Origin: a virus
Strand: one strand, 5' to 3'
Virus record (IMG/VR): IMGVR_UViG_3300006919_000096
Coordinates: 1-47,353 of that record
DNA: 47,353 bases
The notes below the pieces were generated by a model. It saw only the letters and a list, made by a program, of their open reading frames with translations, did no database searches and had not been told where the DNA came from. Every line of letters starts with the position of its first letter. Positions within the stretch are counted from its first letter, which is position 1. This document shows positions 2,695 to 40,077 of the stretch, one piece after another. The translations under genes and the position numbers were made by a program.

Positions 2695-3243
2695 ATGAAT
2701 TGTTTTATATATGATTTTGAAGGTAATTTAAAAATTACCAAAAGCAACGGGTTACAATATGTCATAGAAAAATCAGATAAACCTGAATTGGGTTTTAACT
2801 ATGACATGATTGTTTACGAACAAGAAGAATTTAAAATCGTGAACTTTGACCCAGAGACCCCAATTGATGAACAAAAAGTTGAACTTAATGAAAGTGAAAA
2901 GGATGAAATTGAAACATTTATCCTAAACTCTGTTCCTCCTGTGGGTTATGACCTAAACACTCAGTATGTTGACAGACTATTTGAAGAATGTGAAAGAAAA
3001 CAAAATGAGTCCTTTCGCGGCCTAGGTTTTAACGAACCCTATCATGTTTTTATGGCAGGTCGAGATGGTTCCAATCACCCAAAACGTTTAGAAGCTAGAG
3101 AATGTTTAGAATTCTATGATGTCTTATGGAATCAATTTGAAATGACAAAAGAATTGATTTCACAAACAAGAGAAGACCACTTGCAGGATTATGGTTATTA
3201 TCAGCATTCATTGCCCACTAATGCAAGGGTGCAAGCACAGTAA
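2695..3243 (+). CDS. Hypothetical protein in modification cluster
   Basis: 182 residues, acidic, no membrane segment and no motif I recognise. The N-terminus is beta-like (MNCFIYDFEGNLKITKSNG). The C-terminal half is helical and ends in a Tyr/Gln-rich stretch (LQDYGYYQHSLPTNARVQAQ). A good ribosome site (AAAAGGA about 7 bases before the ATG) supports the start. Its stop codon overlaps the ATG of the following oxygenase by one base, so the two are translationally coupled. It may be a chaperone or accessory of the virion protein being modified, but no function can be assigned. Confidence 0.7.
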   Translation: MNCFIYDFEGNLKITKSNGLQYVIEKSDKPELGFNYDMIVYEQEEFKIVNFDPETPIDEQKVELNESEKDEIETFILNSVPPVGYDLNTQYVDRLFEECERKQNESFRGLGFNEPYHVFMAGRDGSNHPKRLEARECLEFYDVLWNQFEMTKELISQTREDHLQDYGYYQHSLPTNARVQAQ

Positions 3244-4028
3244 TGAATTACGATTCTTTGATGGGTAAACTATCATCTGATGGTGTGGAGATAATACACA
3301 TAGATGAACCTTTTAGTTTTAATGATTGTTTTCCTCTAGGAAATAGAGTTTTTGTTTTAGATAATTATCTCTCAACTAATATCCATTTATGGTTAGATGA
3401 AACTTGGATGATGCAAACTTGGTGGGCGAAATCAAATCAAGTTAGAAGGAATGGGAGAGTTAGTGAAGGGAGAAACACCCAACCTTATCATCAGTTTTGG
3501 GGTGCTTCCATACTAAGACATCGACCAGGGGATGACCCAACAAAAGCTTCTCATGATAAAGAAACTGGTAGGTCGGATGAACTTGCCTCTTTTGGAACTC
3601 TTTGGCTGGAAAGAAAGTTAAGAACTGATTTTTCTTTTGAATGGATTAGATTTCAGTATGCTGGTTTAAATTCACAATCTACAGGATTGGACGGAACTTG
3701 TCACACTGATTGTGATGATATGGATGATTGGAATTGTTCCTTTCTATGGTATTCCAACCCGTATTGGTTTGATTTTTGGGGAGGTGACCTAAATCTTTAT
3801 TCTGAAATTATTTTGGGTGGAACGCAATTTGACGAAAAACTTAAGAAACACTTGGTCGGTTCGATAAAATTTAAACCAAATAGATTAGTTATTTTTGACG
3901 GGAGAATACCTCATCAAGCATGTTCACCAAATAGAAATTCTGGTTGGACCGATAGAAGGTCAATTGTAATTCGAGGCGACGAAATAAGAACTTTAGATAA
4001 ACAGGAAAGGTACTATGCCCACAATTGA
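3243..4028 (+). CDS. Fe(II)/2-oxoglutarate-dependent oxygenase
   Basis: 261 residues. The C-terminal half carries the double-stranded beta-helix metal site: His154-x-Asp156 in GTCHTDCDD, distal His224 in FDGRIPHQAC, and Arg239 in DRRSIVIR as the expected 2-oxoglutarate anchor. The family hydroxylates protein side chains or small molecules using O2, Fe(II) and 2-oxoglutarate. The N-terminal 130 residues are Trp-rich (LWLDETWMMQTWW) and probably bind substrate. It overlaps the previous gene by one base and the next by 14 bases, so it belongs to one translation unit with a glycosyltransferase and a second oxygenase. Substrate unknown; hydroxylation of an adjacent repeat or fibre protein is plausible. 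Confidence 0.8.
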   Translation: MNYDSLMGKLSSDGVEIIHIDEPFSFNDCFPLGNRVFVLDNYLSTNIHLWLDETWMMQTWWAKSNQVRRNGRVSEGRNTQPYHQFWGASILRHRPGDDPTKASHDKETGRSDELASFGTLWLERKLRTDFSFEWIRFQYAGLNSQSTGLDGTCHTDCDDMDDWNCSFLWYSNPYWFDFWGGDLNLYSEIILGGTQFDEKLKKHLVGSIKFKPNRLVIFDGRIPHQACSPNRNSGWTDRRSIVIRGDEIRTLDKQERYYAHN

Positions 4029-4910: not shown

Positions 4911-5660
4911 ATGCATACTATTGATAATGATGAATATGCGGTAACTGCATTATTCCCAACATACCTTTTTAGTTTTGATTTAATTAAGCTTGGGTATGTT
5001 AACGAAGAATATTTGGGTCAATTGAAAGATGCAATTCTTGAAATGAGAACAAAAGACCCAATTGGTCGTAGAGTTTCTAATGCATATACGGGATGGCAAT
5101 CAGACGATGGTTGTGAAAGTCATTCTAGATTTATTCGATTATATAGAGCATTCAATCGAATAACACAATCACAACTGACACCTTTCTTTGGGTTTTCGCC
5201 TTCTCAAGTTCAAGTAACAGTTTCGAACGTTTGGGCTAATGTAAACGACAAAGGGGCATGGAACTACCCACATTTACATAATGGTTGTTGGTATTCGGGT
5301 GTATTTTACATAGATGCAGATGAAGATACTGGTGATTTGCATGTAATTGATACACATGCTAAAGTGGTATCAGATTTTCCATATGGAAGAAGACAAAATG
5401 CCAGTGTTAATATAAGACCAAAATCTGGTAGACTTTTGTTGTTTCCGAGTGGTTTGATGCATATGGTTGAGGCAAACCAAACAGATAAAGATAGAATCAG
5501 TATAGCATTCAATTTAAATCATACGTATCTCCAGCCACCTGTTATAGGTCAGCCAATTAATATGGGTGATGTGTATGACCCAAGAGGTGATGATATTAAA
5601 TTTAATATTGATGAAAGAGGAAATCCTGTCTATCCACCAAACTTAGAGTATCCTGGGTAA
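4911..5660 (+). CDS. Fe(II)/2-oxoglutarate oxygenase (TIGR02466-like)
   Basis: 249 residues. The pattern NYPHLHNGCWYSGVFYI, followed by SGRLLLFPSGLMHMVEAN and DRISIAFN, is that of the putative 2OG-Fe(II) oxygenase family TIGR02466/PF13759. It supplies candidate ligands His121/His123, distal His184 and 2-oxoglutarate-binding Arg195. It differs in family and ligand spacing from the oxygenase at 3243, so the two are unlikely to be a simple duplication. The C-terminal ~45 residues are Pro- and Asp-rich. It is the last + strand gene of the cluster and its final 18 bases overlap the minus-strand gene that converges on it. Confidence 0.8.
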   Translation: MHTIDNDEYAVTALFPTYLFSFDLIKLGYVNEEYLGQLKDAILEMRTKDPIGRRVSNAYTGWQSDDGCESHSRFIRLYRAFNRITQSQLTPFFGFSPSQVQVTVSNVWANVNDKGAWNYPHLHNGCWYSGVFYIDADEDTGDLHVIDTHAKVVSDFPYGRRQNASVNIRPKSGRLLLFPSGLMHMVEANQTDKDRISIAFNLNHTYLQPPVIGQPINMGDVYDPRGDDIKFNIDERGNPVYPPNLEYPG

Positions 5661-7641: not shown

Positions 7642-8723
7642 TGTTTGGTAGTTATTTTTACAATGAAACCACAAAAAGAGCCGTATCAATTTTTGGTACT
7701 ATGTTTAACAACATCACCATTAAAGAAGTTAAGACTAATGGTACAGTTACCAATGTGCAAAAAGTGCCCATCTCATATGGACCGAAAAAAAGATGGTTAG
7801 CGAGATTGCAACAAGACCCCAAAGCAAGAGATGTAAATGTTTCTGCAATTTCTTTACCGAGGATGTCATTTGAGATATCAGGTATAGAATATGATAACAC
7901 AAGACAACAAAATAAGTTAATTAGAAATAACAAATCACTTACTGGTAGTACTACACAGAGAAACTATCAGTACATGCCTGCACCATACAATCTATCGTTC
8001 GACTTAAGTATTGTGTCGAACAATGTAACAGAATCATTACAAATAGTAGAACAAATATTACCATACTTTCAACCAGAATACACTGTTGCTATGAAAATGA
8101 TTGATAGTATGGAAGATACCAGAGATGTTCCTATTGTACTGAATAATGTGAGATATGAAGATAACTATGAAGAATCATTCGATGCTAGGAGAATAGTACA
8201 ATATACATTGAATTTCACTATGAAATTATACTTCTTTGGACCTGTTACTAGTGGTAAAGTCATAACAAAAGTTATCGAGAGGGATTATATCAATACAGAT
8301 GTTTCTGGTGCGTTTACAACAACACAAATAGATGGTTCTGGATTAGTAAAAGAAGTCAAATCTTATGAACCTGTATTTACAGAATCTTTTGATGCTGCCA
8401 ATAACACCAATCAAATCAGAACTGTTTCTACACCCTCGATTAACTTAGGACCGCAAGTTGGAGATAGAGTATTCAATACAAATTTAGAAACACCACCGAC
8501 TATTAGCAGTATCATTATTGAAAATAATGCACAAACAAATTTTGTTGATGCCCGAGTTGGTTATATTCTGAGTGAAAATGTAACTATAGAACAAGGCACA
8601 GTCTTAGAGTTTGCTGGTTCTGTTTCAACAGAAGACACCTATATAATTAGTGAAAATGTTACATTTTACGATGATGGTACAGATAGTACGTATTCCGAAG
8701 ATATAGTTAGTGACAACTCTTAA
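7641..8723 (+). CDS. 15: Tail completion / sheath stabiliser gp15
   Basis: 360 residues, longer than T4 gp15 (272). The N-terminal half matches gp15: MFGSYFYNETTKRAVSIFG, YGPKKRWLARLQQDP, LPRMSFEISGIEYD and MPAPYNLSFDLSIVSNN. gp15 caps the tail tube and sheath and forms the surface that meets the neck. The extra ~90 residues at the C-terminus are beta-like and end in an acidic Ser/Asp tail, an accessory extension not needed for the T4 protein. It is coupled to gp14 by a one-base overlap. Confidence 0.9.
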   Translation: MFGSYFYNETTKRAVSIFGTMFNNITIKEVKTNGTVTNVQKVPISYGPKKRWLARLQQDPKARDVNVSAISLPRMSFEISGIEYDNTRQQNKLIRNNKSLTGSTTQRNYQYMPAPYNLSFDLSIVSNNVTESLQIVEQILPYFQPEYTVAMKMIDSMEDTRDVPIVLNNVRYEDNYEESFDARRIVQYTLNFTMKLYFFGPVTSGKVITKVIERDYINTDVSGAFTTTQIDGSGLVKEVKSYEPVFTESFDAANNTNQIRTVSTPSINLGPQVGDRVFNTNLETPPTISSIIIENNAQTNFVDARVGYILSENVTIEQGTVLEFAGSVSTEDTYIISENVTFYDDGTDSTYSEDIVSDNS

Positions 8724-8724
8724 T

Positions 8725-9144
8725 ATGAATGACAATGTTGATGATAAATTAAATCAGATACTAGAAATTGGAACAGATATATCAACACGAACCAAAGAAG
8801 TTTCTAGGGTAGTATCAAATAAAAATAGAACAGAAAATATTGATACTGATTATCGATACGCAAGAGAAAATTTGTATAACTTGGTAGAACGCGGGCAAGA
8901 TGCTATCGATGGCATTCTACAATTATCCAAAGACACTGAACACCCTAGAGCCTATGAAGTTGCAGGCCAACTTATAAAAACTGTAGCAGATACGGCAGAG
9001 AAGTTAATAGACCTACAACAAAAATTACAAAATTTAGAAGGTGAAACATCTTCAGTAACAACACAACACAACCACCTTTATGTTGGGTCAACTTCTGAAT
9101 TACAGAAGTTTCTGAAGAAAAGTAAAAAATTAGATGATGAATGA
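8725..9144 (+). CDS. 16: Small terminase subunit gp16
   Basis: 139 residues from ATG 8725, one base after the gp15 stop; a GTG at 8710 would add five residues inside gp15. It is all-helical, with DYRYARENLYNLVERGQDAIDGILQLSKD, then HPRAYEVAGQLIKTVADTAEKLIDLQ forming the oligomerising coiled-coil hairpin typical of T4-like small terminases. It binds concatemeric DNA and stimulates gp17. The gene is followed not by gp17 but by a radical SAM gene that overlaps its last 11 bases. Confidence 0.9.
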   Translation: MNDNVDDKLNQILEIGTDISTRTKEVSRVVSNKNRTENIDTDYRYARENLYNLVERGQDAIDGILQLSKDTEHPRAYEVAGQLIKTVADTAEKLIDLQQKLQNLEGETSSVTTQHNHLYVGSTSELQKFLKKSKKLDDE

Positions 9145-10069
9145 AATCCCACTAAAAGAAGTTGACCAATACCAATTCTTAGAACATCGAAAAGAACAAG
9201 AACAGAAACACTGGAACAACAGAAACTCCAAGTCTGTTTTAGATAGTATCCTAACTATTGAAGTCAATACAACAGAACTATGCAATAGAACATGTGTCTT
9301 TTGTCCAAGACACAATCCAGAAGTTTTCCCTAATAGACACCTTCACATGACCCCAAGAGGGGCTAGAATTATTTGTGAAAACTTATCAGGACATGAATAC
9401 ACCTTCACTGGTAAAATTTCATTTTCCGGTTTCGGTGAAAACACTATGAATAAACAATTCCCTGAAATTGTTCATACATTCAAAAAGTGGTTACCGAATG
9501 CCACACTTGAGTGTAACACTAATGGGGATAGATTAAACCTAGATTATGCAAATCTTTTATTTAACTCTGGATTAGATTTACTTTATATCAACTTATACGA
9601 TGGTCCAGAACAAATGGACCACTTTAATGAAATGTTAAATACTATACCAAACGAAAAGTATAAGTTTCGTATGCATTGGTCTCAGGCTAACCATGGGTTG
9701 ATATTAAATAACAGAAGTGGTGTTATAGATTGGGTTGGTATCGAAGATACTGATGTTAAGTCTCTTCAGGGTAAATCATGCCACTATCCATTTTATAAAA
9801 TGTTTGTTGATTGGAATGGTGACGTACTATTTTGTTCGAACGATTGGGGCAGAGAACATGTTGTTGGTAACCTAATGCAGGATTCCCTATTCGATGTTTG
9901 GATGTCTAAGCCCATGAAAGATATCAGAAAAAAATTAATAAAGGGTGATAGGTCCAGCTCACCATGTAATAAATGTAGTGTTAATGGAACTTTGTTTGGT
10001 AAACCTTCCTTTGATATAATTAAGGAGTACTACGATGGTACAACCGAAGAACGAAGGTTATCTCGGTAA
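9134..10069 (+). CDS. Radical SAM protein with SPASM/twitch-like C-terminus, inserted between terminase genes
   Basis: 311 residues. The radical SAM signature Cx3Cx2C is clear: Cys50, Cys54, Cys57 in ELCNRTCVFC. It should bind the 4Fe-4S cluster that cleaves S-adenosylmethionine. ISFSGFGENTMN (95-106) matches the position of the glycine-rich SAM-binding strand. The C-terminal region holds Cys216, Cys234, Cys278 and Cys281 in the context VDWNGDVLFCSNDW...GNLMQDSLFDVW...CNKC, the layout of a SPASM/twitch domain that binds an auxiliary cluster. Such enzymes often modify peptides or proteins. It overlaps gp16 by 11 bases and gp17 by 35 bases, and the gp17 ribosome site lies inside it, so it is built into the terminase operon. 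Substrate unknown. ATG 9137 is an equally possible start. Confidence 0.87.
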   Translation: MMNEIPLKEVDQYQFLEHRKEQEQKHWNNRNSKSVLDSILTIEVNTTELCNRTCVFCPRHNPEVFPNRHLHMTPRGARIICENLSGHEYTFTGKISFSGFGENTMNKQFPEIVHTFKKWLPNATLECNTNGDRLNLDYANLLFNSGLDLLYINLYDGPEQMDHFNEMLNTIPNEKYKFRMHWSQANHGLILNNRSGVIDWVGIEDTDVKSLQGKSCHYPFYKMFVDWNGDVLFCSNDWGREHVVGNLMQDSLFDVWMSKPMKDIRKKLIKGDRSSSPCNKCSVNGTLFGKPSFDIIKEYYDGTTEERRLSR

Positions 10070-11627
10070 TAATCTAGTCAAACGTTCTGGTATTGAACAC
10101 CAATACACCGAAGAAGAACTCACAGAATATGTGAAATGCTCAGAAGATCCTGTATATTTTATTGAAACATATTGTCAAGTCATTTCTCTGGATGAGGGTC
10201 TGGTACCATTTAAACTTCGTGGATATCAGGGAAAACTTATTGAACATTACAATAATAATCGTTTCAATGTAGTCTTAGCATCAAGACAATCGGGAAAATC
10301 AATCACTTCTTGTGGTTATCTCCTTTGGTTCTTACTTTTTCATCCAGAAGTCACTGTTGCGGTGCTTGCAAACAAAGGTGCAATTGCCCGTGAAATGGTT
10401 GCACGTATTGTTACCATGTTGGAATCTGTGCCATTCTTCTTACAGCCAGGTGTTAAGATTCTCAACAAAGGTAATATTGAATTTGCAAATGATTCTAAAT
10501 TAGTTGCAGCCGCAACATCTTCATCATCAATTCGTGGTCTTTCTATCAACCTTCTATATCTAGATGAGTTTGCGTTCGTAGAAAATGCAGAAGAATTCTA
10601 TACTTCAACATATCCCGTTGTTACTTCTGGTGCAAACTCAAAAGTTATCATCACATCAACTGCTAACGGTGTGGGTAACATGTTCCATAAGATTTATGAA
10701 AGTGCGGTTCATGGTAATTCCGAATATAAACACTTTCTTATTAATTGGTTTGATGTTCCCGGCCGTGATGATGAATGGAAAAAACAAACGATTGCAAATA
10801 CCTCAGAAGCACAATTTGAACAAGAATACGGAAACTCATTTCTTGGTACGGGTAATACACTCATCAACTCAGACACTCTTTTGGGTCTCAGGGCCATCGA
10901 ACCATCATGGCAAAGAGAAGGGTTCCAACTTTATGAAAAACCCTTAGAGGGACACACATACATTGCCACGGTGGATGTATCTAGAGGTCGAGGGATGGAT
11001 TACTCAACCTTTACAATTTTTGATGTTTCATCCAATCCGTTCAAACAAGTTGCAACTTATAGAAATTCTCAGATATCACCTTTGCTATTTCCTGATGTTA
11101 TAAATAAATACTGCAAGCAATATAACGATTCTCTTGTAATCATTGAAAATAATAACGAAGGGTCATTAGTAGCTGCACAATTACATTATGATATAGAATA
11201 CCCAAATGTTTTTACACAGGGTCAATTGAAAGCCGAAGACATTGGTGTAACAATGTCGAAAAAAATTAAAAGAATTGGGTGTTCGACACTCAAAGAAATG
11301 ATGGAGGAAAATAGATTAACAGTTGTTGATAGATATACCATCACAGAAATGATGACTTTTATCAGTAAAGGGACTTCATACGAAGCAGACAGAGGTTATC
11401 ATGATGACTTAGTAATGAATTGTGTCTTATTCGGATGGTTCATAACCACAGAATATTTTAATCATCTGAGTGATACACAAGTAAAAGACCTTTTATATGC
11501 AGACCAACAAAGGATGATAGAAAATGATATGCTACCTGCTGGTGTTTTTGGTTCAATTAGTGAACCAGAAACTTTTGTAGATAGCACTGGTGATAGATGG
11601 TTTGCACAGGAAGGTAAAACTTGGTGA
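10035..11627 (+). CDS. 17: Large terminase subunit gp17 (ATPase-nuclease)
   Basis: 530 residues (T4 gp17 is 610). Walker A is SRQSGKS at 83-89. Walker B is LLYLDEF at 173-179 with catalytic Glu178. The C-terminal RNase H-fold nuclease has acidic residues Asp314 (TVDVSRGRGMDYSTF), Glu371 (VIIENNNEG) and Asp457/Asp458 (GYHDDLVMN). It forms the packaging motor at the portal and cuts concatemers. The start has a good AGGAG site located within the radical SAM gene. Compared with T4 it lacks about 80 residues, mostly at the termini. Confidence 0.95.
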   Translation: MVQPKNEGYLGNNLVKRSGIEHQYTEEELTEYVKCSEDPVYFIETYCQVISLDEGLVPFKLRGYQGKLIEHYNNNRFNVVLASRQSGKSITSCGYLLWFLLFHPEVTVAVLANKGAIAREMVARIVTMLESVPFFLQPGVKILNKGNIEFANDSKLVAAATSSSSIRGLSINLLYLDEFAFVENAEEFYTSTYPVVTSGANSKVIITSTANGVGNMFHKIYESAVHGNSEYKHFLINWFDVPGRDDEWKKQTIANTSEAQFEQEYGNSFLGTGNTLINSDTLLGLRAIEPSWQREGFQLYEKPLEGHTYIATVDVSRGRGMDYSTFTIFDVSSNPFKQVATYRNSQISPLLFPDVINKYCKQYNDSLVIIENNNEGSLVAAQLHYDIEYPNVFTQGQLKAEDIGVTMSKKIKRIGCSTLKEMMEENRLTVVDRYTITEMMTFISKGTSYEADRGYHDDLVMNCVLFGWFITTEYFNHLSDTQVKDLLYADQQRMIENDMLPAGVFGSISEPETFVDSTGDRWFAQEGKTW

Positions 11628-14485: not shown

Positions 14486-16162
14486 ATGGACATACTTGGA
14501 TTCGAAATAACTCGCAAGAAAAATGAATTGCGACAGGGAGAGGACTTGCAGGGCAAGTCCTTTGTTCCGCCTTCTTCAGAAGATGGTGTTGCAGTTCTAG
14601 AACAACAATCCGGATATGTCGCTGGAGGTGCCGTTGGTGCCTACATCGACATGGAAGGTGTCATCAAGTCTGAAGTAGACTTAATCCGCAAATATCGTGA
14701 AATTGCATTGATACCTGAATGTGATTCTGCAATCGAAGATATTGTAAACGAATGTATCACATCTGATATTGATGATACTATTGTTGATATCGACCTTTCC
14801 AAAACCAAACTTAGTGAAAGTATCAAAAATAAAGTTCATGAGGAATTTCAAACTATCCTCACTACTATGAAGTTTAATCAAAACTCACACGAACTTTTTA
14901 GAAAATGGTATATCGATGGTCGTATCTATTTCCATAAAGTCGTTGACCCACAACGACCAAAGAGGGGTATCATTGATATTCGTTTCATTGACCCGACGAA
15001 AATTAAAAAGATTCGTAACATAGAAAAAGAAAAGGACAAGAGAACTGGTTTGGATGTTATCAAATCAGTAGAAGAGTTCTACGCATTCAATGAAAAAGGT
15101 ATCGAAAGTAACAGTAATACAGGTCAAGCAGTTAGGATTGCACCTGAAGCAATCTCTTATACGACTTCTGGATTGTTAGACCAATCACGCAATATCATTT
15201 TAGGTTACTTACACAAAGCAATTAAAACTGCAAACCAACTTTCTATGATGGAAGATGCACTTGTTATCTATAGAATTTCACGTGCACCTGAACGTCGAAT
15301 CTTTTATATTGATGTTGGCAACCTACCTAAAGTTAAAGCAGAACAATACCTCAACGAGGTAATGACTCGTTATAAGAATAAGTTAGTCTACAATGCACAG
15401 ACTGGTGAACTGAAAGATGACCGAAAGCATATGTCTATGCTCGAAGACTTTTGGTTACCACGTAGAGAAGGTGGTAGAGGAACTCAGATTGAGACTTTAC
15501 CTGGTGGTCAAAACCTATCTGAGATTGAAGACATCGAATACTTTAAGAAAAAACTCTATCGTGCTTTGAATGTACCCATTAGTCGAATGGAATCAGAAAA
15601 TGGTTTTAATATGGGTAAAGCTTCAGAAATCACACGTGATGAGTTAAAGTTTAATAAGTTTTCTAATAGGTTACAATCAAAGTTCGCAAGGTGTTTCACT
15701 GATATACTCAAAACACAATTAGTTTTGAAAGAGATTATGTCAGGTGATGAGTTTGATAAAATCAAAGATATTTTGGCATACAACTTCTCTACCGATAACC
15801 ATTTCACTGAACTTAAAAATACAGAAGTCTTAAGAGAACGTATTGATACATTGAATTCAATGTCCGAATATGTTGGTCAATATTATTCTCATGAGTATGT
15901 CAGAAAATATATCTTAATGCAAACTGAAGAAGATATTAAGATGATTGACAAACAAATTAAAGATGAAAAAAGTGAAGACCCTGAAACATATAATGATATG
16001 CCAGATAATCAACCTCCAACTCCAGAGCCGGAACCCACTCCTGCACCTGAACCACCAAAAGATGATTCTGGTGATGAGACTTCAGAAGAACTTGCTCGGT
16101 CTATGTCAAAATATTTTGAGTCTTTGACAGAAGAAATGGAGTATAAGCGTGAAGACTACTAA
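14486..16162 (+). CDS. 20: Portal protein gp20
   Basis: 558 residues (T4 gp20 is 524). Typical T4-like portal blocks are present: [26 protein letters not shown], the [17 protein letters not shown] segment, [19 protein letters not shown], and [18 protein letters not shown] with [13 protein letters not shown]. It forms the dodecameric ring at the head vertex and nucleates prohead assembly. The C-terminus has a Pro/Glu-rich linker ([18 protein letters not shown]) absent from T4, then a short helix. Its last 14 bases overlap the collagen-like gene. Confidence 0.95.
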
Positions 16163-17309
16163 TATCATTTCAGAAGCAAAACTTTTAGCTTCAACGGTTG
16201 CAATCTCTAAACACGAAGTACAGAAACTCGAAGAAAAAGTTTTTGAACTTCTTGGTGAGTTTAAAACTATCGAAGGACCCCAGGGAGAACAAGGGGTTCA
16301 AGGTATACCAGGAGCACAAGGTGAGAAAGGAGAAAAAGGTGATACAGGACCCCAAGGACCCAAAGGAGACACTGGAGAAACTGGCATCCAAGGTGAAAAA
16401 GGTGTTCCAGGCTCTGATGGAGCCAAAGGAGACATGGGCCCACAAGGCGAACAGGGGGTTAGAGGCTATCAAGGAGAACGCGGAGAAACAGGTCCCATTG
16501 GTCACACTGGACCACAAGGCGTTGCCGGGGAACGAGGACCTCAAGGTATACAGGGCCCTGTTGGAGAGACTGGTTCACAAGGTGAAGTTGGTCCTCAAGG
16601 TGAGAAAGGAGAACGAGGCCAACGTGGACAACGTGGTCTTAAGGGAGAACGTGGCGAACGCGGTGAACAAGGTGAACAGGGATTACAGGGGCCTATTGGT
16701 CCAACTGGTGAAAAGGGAGAGAAAGGAGACCCAGGAGAAGACGCAGACATCACTCCGGTCAAAGAAGAAATAGAAAATTTTATTGAAACCGCGAGAAAAT
16801 CCTTAGATGATTTACGAGTTAATCTCAACGAGGCCGCAGAAGAAAAAGAAACAAATTTCGAAAAATTTAAAAAACAATTTCAAAAAAATCTTGAAACTGA
16901 CTTAAATAAATTTAAGCAGAATGTTTTATCTCAAATGAGTAATATGGCTGGAGGTGGTTCTGTAAACATTCTTCAGATGGATGATGTGACGTTTCAGAAG
17001 AGACACGAGGTAGAAGGTGATGCGATTCTCATCTTCGATGCAACAACACAAAAATTTCAGTCAGAGTCGTTTAACGATATTATAGAGAGGTTACAAGTAG
17101 GAATGGAAGTTCAATACGACAGATTAGTTGATACCGATGGAGATTATGTCTACGTTGGGGAAGCACTGCCGGGGACTGCCAGAGATGCTTCAACGTGGAG
17201 AATTAAAAGGGTATACGAAGTAGGGGATGATATAGAAATCATCTGGGCAGACAACACAGCTGATTTCGTGAAGGTTTGGGACGATAGAGCAACCTACGAG
17301 TACGTCTAA
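16149..17309 (+). CDS. Collagen-like virion fibre protein
   Basis: 386 residues from GTG 16149, supported by a GGAG site seven bases upstream. Order: a helical N-terminus (1-42); 52 consecutive Gly-X-Y triplets at 43-198 with no interruption; an acidic/basic coiled coil (about 200-275); and a C-terminal beta domain that starts around [12 protein letters not shown] and ends in [20 protein letters not shown], a module I associate with structural proteins of marine T4-like phages. The triplets should form a trimeric collagen helix rod. Lys in the Y position is common (many GEK) and three triplets have Pro in Y (GIP, GVP, GDP), the positions hydroxylated in animal collagens. It overlaps the portal gene by 14 bases. 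Confidence 0.88.
16275..16742 (+). repeat. Collagen-type Gly-X-Y coding repeat, 52 triplets
   Basis: A 9-base coding periodicity with glycine at every third codon. Counting by eye, the glycine codons are GGA 22, GGT 17, GGC 9 and GGG 4. Neighbouring tail genes mostly use GGT. This may indicate separate origin of the segment or selection against perfect DNA repeats. Confidence 0.9.
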
Positions 17310-30943: not shown

Positions 30944-31387
30944 ATGACACTTGATGAAATTAAGAATGAATGGTCGAAAGACTGTGAGATAGATGATATT
31001 GAGCTCGACCGTTCATCATTAGAAGTACCAAAACTCCACGCAAAATATACCGACATGTTAACAGATAAATTGTTAACTCTTCAATCGCTCAATCTTAAAA
31101 TGTCAACTCTGCAAAAAAACAAGTGGCTTTGGTATACAGGAAAGATTGACCAGAATACACTTGAACATCTTGGGTGGGGTGATGACCCATTCGATGGATT
31201 GAAAATCCTGAAAGGTGATTACAAAACTTTTTTAGATGCAGATAACGATGTCCAACAAATGAAATCAAAAATCTTTTATATTGAAACGACCATAGATTAT
31301 CTCAAAGGTTGTATCGAGAATATCAAATGGAGACACCAAACAATTAAAAACACAATTGAGTGGCGTAAGTTTATGGCAGGACAATAA
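30944..31387 (+). CDS. uvsY: Recombination mediator UvsY
   Basis: 147 residues (T4 UvsY is 137). The helical plan matches: MTLDEIKNEWSKDCEIDDIELDRSS, a middle Lys/Leu-rich helix, LDADNDVQQMKSKIFYIETTIDYLKGCIENIKWRH, and IKNTIEWRKFMAGQ at the end (compare T4 IKHIQDMRAFEAGK). It loads UvsX recombinase on gp32-coated single-stranded DNA. The start lacks a Shine-Dalgarno site and is preceded by a U-rich run (GATTTTTTTATATTATG). Its neighbour downstream is an oxygenase and then uvsW. Confidence 0.88.
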   Translation: MTLDEIKNEWSKDCEIDDIELDRSSLEVPKLHAKYTDMLTDKLLTLQSLNLKMSTLQKNKWLWYTGKIDQNTLEHLGWGDDPFDGLKILKGDYKTFLDADNDVQQMKSKIFYIETTIDYLKGCIENIKWRHQTIKNTIEWRKFMAGQ

Positions 31388-31388
31388 T

Positions 31389-32102
31389 ATGAATGTTGTT
31401 ATGAATAAAGGTAATGTCTGTTGTATAAAGGATTTTTTGACTTCAGACGAGGCGGATTATATTAACCAATTTTGTAGAGTTATACCACCATCAACTGGTT
31501 CTACTGGTAAACAGGAACTTTATGTAGACCCAGACGCACCAAATCTAGAAGAACGGGGGATGGGGCAAACAGACCCAAATATAAGAAGTTCTGAAATAAG
31601 ATGGTTAGACTCAGGAACTTTACCTGAAGAAATGGTAACTAAAATTTATACACAAACTCAACAAGTTGTTTCTGAGGTTATGAAATCTACTTTAGAATTT
31701 TATATAACAGAACAATGGCAACATACAACTTACTATGGGTGTAAAGATTTTGGCGACCATTATACTTGGCATCAAGATGACCAGTTTATTTCACAATACC
31801 CATATGTTGATGGTAATGGTGCACCATTCATTCGAAAAATAAGTGCGTCTTTAATTTTGAATGACCCATCAGAATATGAAGGCGGTGATTTTCAATTTGT
31901 GGAATGGGAAAGGGTTTTTGATAAGATACCAGAAAACGGTAAGCTTGATGTAAACAACCAAATATGGACTATGCCGTATTCTTCCACAGCAAAAGGTTCA
32001 ATTGTAATCTTTCCATCACTCACACACCACAGAATCAAACCCGTTAAATGGGGTACTAGAAATTCTTTAGTTATGTGGTTTGGTGGGGCACCGTATGTCT
32101 AA
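31389..32102 (+). CDS. Fe(II)/2-oxoglutarate oxygenase, prolyl-hydroxylase-like
   Basis: 237 residues from ATG 31389, one base after the uvsY stop. Metal site: His128-x-Asp130 in HYTWHQDD, distal His214 in PSLTHHRIKPV, and Arg224 in WGTRNSLVMWF for 2-oxoglutarate. The pattern GGDFQF...GSIVIFPSLTHHR.KPV.WGTR is that of PKHD/P4H-type hydroxylases, which are widespread in marine T4-like phages. It sits inside the recombination operon between uvsY and uvsW and overlaps uvsW by 8 bases. Substrate unknown: candidates are phage structural proteins, host translation factors or nucleic acid. Confidence 0.87.
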   Translation: MNVVMNKGNVCCIKDFLTSDEADYINQFCRVIPPSTGSTGKQELYVDPDAPNLEERGMGQTDPNIRSSEIRWLDSGTLPEEMVTKIYTQTQQVVSEVMKSTLEFYITEQWQHTTYYGCKDFGDHYTWHQDDQFISQYPYVDGNGAPFIRKISASLILNDPSEYEGGDFQFVEWERVFDKIPENGKLDVNNQIWTMPYSSTAKGSIVIFPSLTHHRIKPVKWGTRNSLVMWFGGAPYV

Positions 32103-38813: not shown

Positions 38814-39305
38814 ATGACAGATAAGAATATGTTCAATGCTACCCCAGCATTGTTTTTTGATTTTGAAAACCCACAGATGGACCCCAGTCTTCTAGAAAAA
38901 GAACTCACCGAAACTATAGAAAAGATTAATGTCATTGGTTTATCTGCTAATCAGATTGGGCATGATGTTAGGTGTTTGGCTTTAAACTCACAAGACAGAG
39001 GTGTTGTTGTGATGTTCAATCCTCAACTCAAAGCTGTATCGAAAGAGATGGTTGTAATGAAAGAAGGTGATGCCATGGTACCAGACTTTTTCGTTTCTTT
39101 AAAACGTCCGAAACACATTGTTGTTGAATATCAAGATACTCAGGGTGGAACTCATGAACTCGATTTAACAGGTGTTGCTGCTCGTTGTGTTCTACATGAA
39201 ATGGATAATCTAAACGGGGTTTTGTTTCTTGCACGTGCTTCTAGACTTAAACTACAGAGAGCTGTTAAAAGTAAATTGAAGAAAGAGAAAAGAAAATATG
39301 GATAG
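38814..39305 (+). CDS. Peptide-deformylase homologue with degenerate metal site
   Basis: 163 residues. The fold signature of phage deformylases is present: FFDFENPQMDPSLLEKELTET, motif 1 VIGLSANQIG (Gln47), FNPQL, and a C-terminal HEMDNLNGVLFLARAS. Two zinc ligands are changed. Motif 2 (normally EGCLS) reads EGDAM, so Cys becomes Asp86. Motif 3 (HExxH) reads HEMDN, so the second His becomes Asn132. Only His128 and the catalytic Glu129 remain. Active deformylase removes formyl groups from nascent proteins; this version is probably inactive or uses another metal arrangement. It starts one base after the previous stop and overlaps the next gene by eight bases. Confidence 0.82.
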   Translation: MTDKNMFNATPALFFDFENPQMDPSLLEKELTETIEKINVIGLSANQIGHDVRCLALNSQDRGVVVMFNPQLKAVSKEMVVMKEGDAMVPDFFVSLKRPKHIVVEYQDTQGGTHELDLTGVAARCVLHEMDNLNGVLFLARASRLKLQRAVKSKLKKEKRKYG

Positions 39306-40077
39306 GATGTATCCAAACCTAAATGATGATAGACCCATAGAACCCCTTTGGATAAGAAATACATTAACTAAAGATGAATGTGATGAGATTATTAGATTCC
39401 ATAAATCTCATCCTCACAAATTATCAGTTGGTGATATTGTTTCTTATCATGCTATGAGAATGACTCAAATCGCAAATTTGAGAATAAGAGATTTATTGTG
39501 GAAACCAATTTATGATGCAATAGGAACTATTCGCAAAGGAAGTGATGAATTGGTTTTCCCTGAAATGACTTCCATAAACGAATGGCATGTTGGTTCATAT
39601 CAGGAACCCCATACTGATGTTACTTCTACTCAAGAATTGAGACTAGAAGCTGAGGGATACTTACCTTGGGTTAGGTCTAGACAATGGACTTGTATATTTT
39701 ATTTGAATGATGACTTTAGAGGTGGTGAAAGTTTCATAGAGTATCCTGGTCCAGATGGTTCAGAAGAAACAGTATATCAGCCCGAAACTGGTTCTGGTGT
39801 GATATTCCAAGGTATGTATCATCAACATGGTGTTAAAAAAATTAGACGTAAAGCCAGATACACAATATCATACTGGTTCACAACTGAACTGAATAGAAGC
39901 TCCCCACAATTAATAGATTTGGACCCGAATGTTGATGAAGATATACTTAGATTGAAACTAGAGGGAAAACCTTATCCGACTTATGCTCCAATTTCACCGG
40001 ATGCTATGGCAAAGGATGAGGACAAACAAGTGTTCAACAAACGACCAACTTATGAAAAAAAATTTATTTCTTCTTAA
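39298..40077 (+). CDS. Fe(II)/2-oxoglutarate oxygenase, P4H-like
   Basis: 259 residues. Metal site His105-x-Asp107 in QEPHTDVTS, distal His175 or His177 in GMYHQHGVKKI, and Arg187 in RKARYTISYWF. The strand RQWTCIFYLNDDFRGGESFIEYP is typical of prolyl 4-hydroxylase-type enzymes. The C-terminal ~60 residues are Pro/Asp/Lys-rich and outside the core fold. ATG 39298 overlaps the deformylase-like gene; ATG 39307 is an alternative start. Proximity to a deformylase homologue might hint at nascent-protein modification, but the substrate is unknown. Confidence 0.85.
   Translation: MDRMYPNLNDDRPIEPLWIRNTLTKDECDEIIRFHKSHPHKLSVGDIVSYHAMRMTQIANLRIRDLLWKPIYDAIGTIRKGSDELVFPEMTSINEWHVGSYQEPHTDVTSTQELRLEAEGYLPWVRSRQWTCIFYLNDDFRGGESFIEYPGPDGSEETVYQPETGSGVIFQGMYHQHGVKKIRRKARYTISYWFTTELNRSSPQLIDLDPNVDEDILRLKLEGKPYPTYAPISPDAMAKDEDKQVFNKRPTYEKKFISS

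Follow-up and report, generated by a model that had tools for sequence, protein, structure and literature searches.

A BtrN-like radical SAM gene between the terminase genes of a phage, probably a movable cargo for sugar alteration

Why should a radical SAM enzyme be encoded between the small and large terminase genes of a marine T4-like phage? The question is raised by the IMG/VR record IMGVR_UViG_3300006919_000096, whose 47,353 nucleotides were analysed as a whole and are called here the window. A preliminary description of this DNA proposed that the gene has a role linked to packaging, or is a long-maintained cargo, and that its product may modify terminase, portal or another virion protein, or act on a peptide. 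From the analysis reported here, which partly supports that interpretation, the gene is probably a movable cargo for sugar alteration and not a part of the packaging machine.

The gene and its setting in the terminase operon

The radical SAM open reading frame lies between TerS and TerL, and the overlaps of 11 and 35 bases given in the preliminary description were confirmed, together with the presence of the TerL ribosome site inside the gene, where the AAGGAG motif is separated from the TerL ATG by seven bases (Table 1). The assignment of TerS relies on its PHROG match, the PF11053 match being slightly below its cut-off in the Pfam scan.

Table 1. Features of the window, in window coordinates. 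BtrN residue equivalences were counted off a pairwise alignment.
Feature	Position	Strand	Basis or remark
2OG-Fe(II) oxygenase gene	3243-4028		
2OG-Fe(II) oxygenase gene	4911-5660		
TerS (gp16-like)	8710-9144 (alternative start ATG 8725)	+	phrog_445, E 7.5e-45
Radical SAM ORF, 311 aa, twitch domain (predicted), BtrN-like	9134-10069	+	Pfam, PDB profile search, Foldseek
CX3CX2C radical SAM cluster motif, Cys50/54/57	9281-9304	+	aligned to BtrN C16/C20/C23
NNRSG motif, Arg194	9707-9721	+	Arg194 on BtrN R152
Twitch auxiliary-cluster Cys216/234/278/281	9779-9976	+	aligned to BtrN C169/C187/C232/C235
Embedded ribosome site AAGGAG and TerL ATG	10022-10027 and 10035-10037	+	inside radical SAM ORF
TerL (gp17-like)	10035-11627	+	PF03237, PF17289, phrog_5989
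Collagen triple-helix repeat protein	16149-17309		PF01391
2OG-Fe(II) oxygenase gene	31356-32102		
Peptide deformylase	38814-39305		PF01327
2OG-Fe(II) oxygenase gene	39298-40077		

The same layout was found in the IMG/VR contig 3300007236_000025, a twin of the window (99.96% identical over 16.9 kb). In a diverged strain, 3300018421_004361 (87.7% identical in DNA), the junction between TerS and the radical SAM gene is present and the contig end falls within the gene. An assembly chimera is ruled out by the occurrence of the junction in these two further contigs. In the comparison of the window with the diverged strain, the radical SAM gene has a dN/dS of about 0.095 at a dS of 0.51 (142 codons) and, since the layout is the same in both, the codon comparison indicates that the gene is maintained in the terminase slot by purifying selection. 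This ratio, the 66-73% protein identity of the IMG/VR relatives and the invariance of the seven cluster cysteines described below exclude a chance reading frame. The idea of a long-maintained cargo is thus borne out by purifying selection and by recurrence in a diverged strain.

Could the gene instead be a stranded relic, that is, a copy that has lost its usual partner, a short-chain dehydrogenase/reductase (SDR), and is no longer functional? The SDR gene was found neither in the window nor in the 31.9 kb twin contig, both of which are genome fragments, as such a relic would lead one to expect. However, all the catalytic residues are intact and the dN/dS of 0.095 against locus L164, at a dS of 0.5, is similar to that of TerS and gp15; moreover, the embedded TerL start constrains the 3' end only, which lies outside the 142 codons compared. 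A relic is therefore most improbable.

A twitch radical SAM enzyme related to BtrN

In the profile search, the protein matched both Radical_SAM (PF04055, E 7.8e-10) and SPASM (PF13186, E 5.8e-14) above their cut-offs. The PF04055 match and the invariant CX3CX2C motif formed by Cys50, 54 and 57 assign it, at the level of sequence, to the radical SAM superfamily, in agreement with the preliminary description. Its cysteines are found at positions 50, 54, 57, 81, 127, 216, 234, 278 and 281. A full SPASM domain is defined by two auxiliary clusters (PMC9012708) and is ruled out here, given that the C-terminal cysteines are only 216, 234, 278 and 281, i.e., enough for one auxiliary cluster. The C-terminal part is thus predicted to be a twitch domain with a single four-cysteine auxiliary cluster: of the SPASM/twitch layout first proposed, the four C-terminal cysteines and the twitch hold, but not the full SPASM.

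When a profile built from 18 phage sequences of the family, dereplicated beforehand, was run against the PDB, BtrN was the sole protein found (E 1e-24). It was also the best Foldseek match (TM 0.73 by target length) of an AlphaFold2 model of moderate confidence, with a mean pLDDT of 69 and low values near the cluster loops. From sequence and from this model, the nearest kinship of the enzyme appears to be with BtrN (PDB 4M7S/4M7T), the 2-deoxy-scyllo-inosamine dehydrogenase of butirosin biosynthesis, whose auxiliary cluster, bound by four cysteines, has been proposed to accept the electron (PMC9012708). The two proteins have in common the radical SAM core, a twitch with four aligned cysteines, an aligned arginine (Arg152 in BtrN) and the fold, and the seven cluster cysteines together with Arg194 are present in 30 of the 30 phage and cellular sequences compared. 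Unlike BtrN, the window enzyme is phage-borne, has relatives paired with an SDR and carries about 34 more N-terminal residues; the two are only about 25% identical, so that the BtrN substrate is not transferable to it.

SpeY (PDB 7WZV), also a twitch radical SAM dehydrogenase, is a structural match weaker than BtrN, and no sequence match to it was found at E 0.001 in the PDB profile search. Among phages, a precedent is the "BtrN protein" of a Campylobacter phage (OP654737, locus L261), about 29% identical, in which the seven cysteines and the arginine are conserved; it has no terminase link. The Campylobacter phage cluster spans positions 1237-8243 of L261 and includes, besides the BtrN homologue, several radical SAM genes, an amidinotransferase gene and an aminotransferase gene.

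Two other functional classes were considered. A peptide maturase (RiPP) was rejected on the cysteine count and the absence of an RRE (PqqD-like) domain from the protein in the Pfam scan. A viperin-like defence enzyme was likewise rejected, the matches to pVip being weak (E 6e-5) and confined to the common core.

A probably mobile pair with an SDR gene and an inherited start site

The search of IMG/VR was evaluated on the best 80 of 291 stretches, which correspond to the twin of the window and 79 other loci; it is in these 79 loci that the protein is 66-73% identical to that of the window. By neighbour clustering, they fall into several distinct genomic contexts, and within the stretches retrieved none of the 79 shows gp15, TerS or TerL adjoining the gene. 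An SDR-like gene follows the radical SAM gene in 77 of the 79 loci; of the other two, L060 stops at the SDR start and L076 stops after inserted genes. The SDR is preceded by an extra gene in ten of the 77, e.g., a methyltransferase, a 2OG-oxygenase-like or a kinase-like reading frame. The partner was assigned to the SDRs by its Rossmann fold, Ser and YxxxK motif, the N-terminal glycine motif being degenerate. A reverse search starting from the SDR found the radical SAM gene in 72 of 76 newly fetched loci (among the matches listed); the remaining four have only 19, 279, 399 and 881 bases 5' of the SDR and are not clear exceptions, since this upstream DNA is too short for a full radical SAM gene. 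In locus L017 the radical SAM gene is broken into two reading frames, probably by a frameshift.

In the phylogenetic tree, the window protein groups with that of the SDR-linked locus L002 (support 99/98) inside the phage clade (98/95), a placement from which the window copy is deduced to derive from an SDR-linked module. Furthermore, some records bearing the module encode a TerL 75-80% identical to that of the window, which indicates that the same phage group holds the module elsewhere in the genome. Marine T4-like phages have been described as carrying radical SAM genes as a variable cargo (PMC7029224; PMC5332604), and the pelagimyophage variable-island cassettes (PMC7029224) are comparable in this respect; one of the contexts found here (context B) has curli genes and a cyclase as in HTVC008M. 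The passages of PMC7029224 on these cassettes describe no SDR pairing, BtrN kinship or terminase location. Compared with the literature examined, the kinship with BtrN, the fixed SDR partner, the self-carried 3' start site and the terminase location appear to be new.

The embedded TerL start, from which the preliminary description suggested a link to packaging, finds its explanation in the same relatives. In most of them the radical SAM gene ends with AAGGA(G/A)TATT-ATG or a near variant, the ATG being the start of the SDR gene, usually 22 or 25 bases ahead of the end of the radical SAM gene. In the window, the 3' end reads AAGGAGTACTACG-ATG and the ATG is the TerL start. As the same 3' end starts the SDR in relatives, descent accounts for the nesting: it is an inherited trait of the 3' end of the gene, for which a packaging role is not needed.

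The terminase interval was surveyed in 135 distinct contigs in which TerS and TerL were both readable (among the matches listed; loci on the same contig were merged by hand). TerS and TerL are adjacent with no insert in 84 of them, and a methyltransferase-type gene occupies the interval in 49 (28 long forms, 18 short forms and three with an extra sulfotransferase-like reading frame). The radical SAM gene is in the interval in two, the window and its twin, which represent one population, and is missing from 133 (among the matches listed). A location between TerS and TerL is therefore not conserved among relatives. A profile of ten long methyltransferases matches PRMT1-type structures (E 1e-22), and the link between short and long forms comes from blastp clustering alone; PRMT-like genes of this kind occur, among others, in L085, L089 and L138. 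The sulfotransferase-like label in L219, L222 and L225 comes from reading the sequence, with no Pfam match. The preliminary description had named two findings that would speak against it, unrelated insertions in the intervals of relatives and cysteines that are not conserved: the first is borne out, the intervals holding either nothing or an unrelated gene, and the second is not, conservation of the cysteines being complete. The proposed packaging role is not sustained, the gene being absent from the interval in all the other contigs surveyed (among the matches listed) and the family sitting elsewhere with the SDR.

These data also bear on the proposal that the substrate of the enzyme is a peptide or else a protein of the virion, the terminase or the portal. 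The tight overlaps with TerS and TerL would suit it, as would the methyltransferase-type gene found in the same interval in 49 of the 135 contigs (among the matches listed), with its PRMT-like longer forms; since modifying enzymes repeatedly occupy the interval, modification of a virion protein keeps a low probability. Nevertheless, most members of the family lie away from the terminase operon and go with the SDR (among the matches listed), the gene is missing from 133 of the 135 intervals, the single auxiliary cluster without RRE is unlike typical peptide maturases and the nearest structure is BtrN. The protein itself gives the proposal no positive support, and it is quite unlikely. A related scenario, in which the interval is a dedicated slot for enzymes modifying a packaging or virion component and the radical SAM enzyme was recruited from a sugar-tailoring module to act instead on a phage protein or the glycan it bears, is very unlikely.

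Cellular relatives and the proposed reaction

A genome search yielded 11 loci, two of which (L250 and L251, on bacterial MAG contigs) have their genes ordered as in phages and probably represent phage contigs within MAG bins. The cellular evidence consists of the nine MAG/SAG loci left after setting these aside. A Gfo/Idh/MocA oxidoreductase gene lies directly 5' of the gene in six of the nine (L254-L258 and L260) and nearby in L259. Several of the cellular relatives are located in CMP-sugar clusters; the neighbours include NeuB (L258, L259), UDP-GlcNAc 2-epimerase (L257, L258), a cytidylyltransferase (L257, L259) and, immediately 3' of the gene in L258, a DegT-type sugar aminotransferase. Among 385 genomes of the class of genome G044 surveyed for the cellular family, nothing was found beyond the four known. 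On the phage side, the radical SAM-SDR pair of L016 and L018 has a GT29 gene 3' of it and, 5' of it, a gene called GT8-like for its resemblance to a cellular gene of L253, which is itself a weak GT8 match.

The pairing with an NAD(P) oxidoreductase in phages and cells, the kinship with BtrN and the neighbours in sugar clusters favour a radical dehydrogenase acting on a sugar or cyclitol. The explanation preferred here, with a probability of about 55%, is that the gene product is a twitch radical SAM dehydrogenase of the BtrN type, that its substrate is a small polyol, with a sugar or cyclitol as the most likely choice, and that the pair is cargo among marine T4-like phages, plausibly for remodelling of the host surface glycan. 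The CX3CX2C cluster would cleave SAM, and the 5'-deoxyadenosyl radical would abstract hydrogen at a hydroxyl-bearing carbon; the second electron would pass to the four-cysteine auxiliary cluster and the product would be a ketone. The SDR encoded by the next gene in most phages may reduce this ketone, the net result being an epimerisation, or convert it in another way. The two genes would move together between marine T4-like phages; in the lineage of the window, the radical SAM gene would have come to stand alone between TerS and TerL, its 3' end, normally the SDR start, starting TerL, and the partner reductase would presumably be supplied from elsewhere. Some observations count against this explanation: the SDR pairing is seen in the loci of relatives and not in the fragments of the window phage, and in most phage contexts no sugar genes lie past the SDR. 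The Pfam searches of window proteins brought up no glycosyltransferase either.

Two further readings concern the product. The pair might supply the phage with an altered nucleotide or DNA base for its genome. DNA modification is common among T4-like phages, a habit with which this idea agrees, and in L016 and L018 the module is preceded by ribonucleotide reductase genes; in the other contexts, however, no nucleotide genes adjoin the pair, and the cellular relatives are in sugar clusters, which makes this product hardly probable. The same enzyme class could also contribute to a glycan of the phage itself, or to a small molecule used as a signal or cofactor, instead of altering the host surface. 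In its favour, Campylobacter phages carry a BtrN-like gene in a cluster that also has an amidinotransferase and an aminotransferase gene, but the sugar-cluster neighbours in cells and the glycosyltransferases flanking the pair in L016 and L018 make such an alternative unlikely.

From the point of view of the operon, the 3' end of the gene shows a cargo gene bringing its own start site for any next gene, with which it can enter an essential operon and leave it running. If the sugar or cyclitol dehydrogenase reading is true, marine T4-like phages would carry a mobile two-enzyme radical/reductase module that rewrites a sugar, a chemistry otherwise familiar from aminoglycoside pathways, and the conserved radical SAM-SDR pairing makes this enzyme pair open to direct test.
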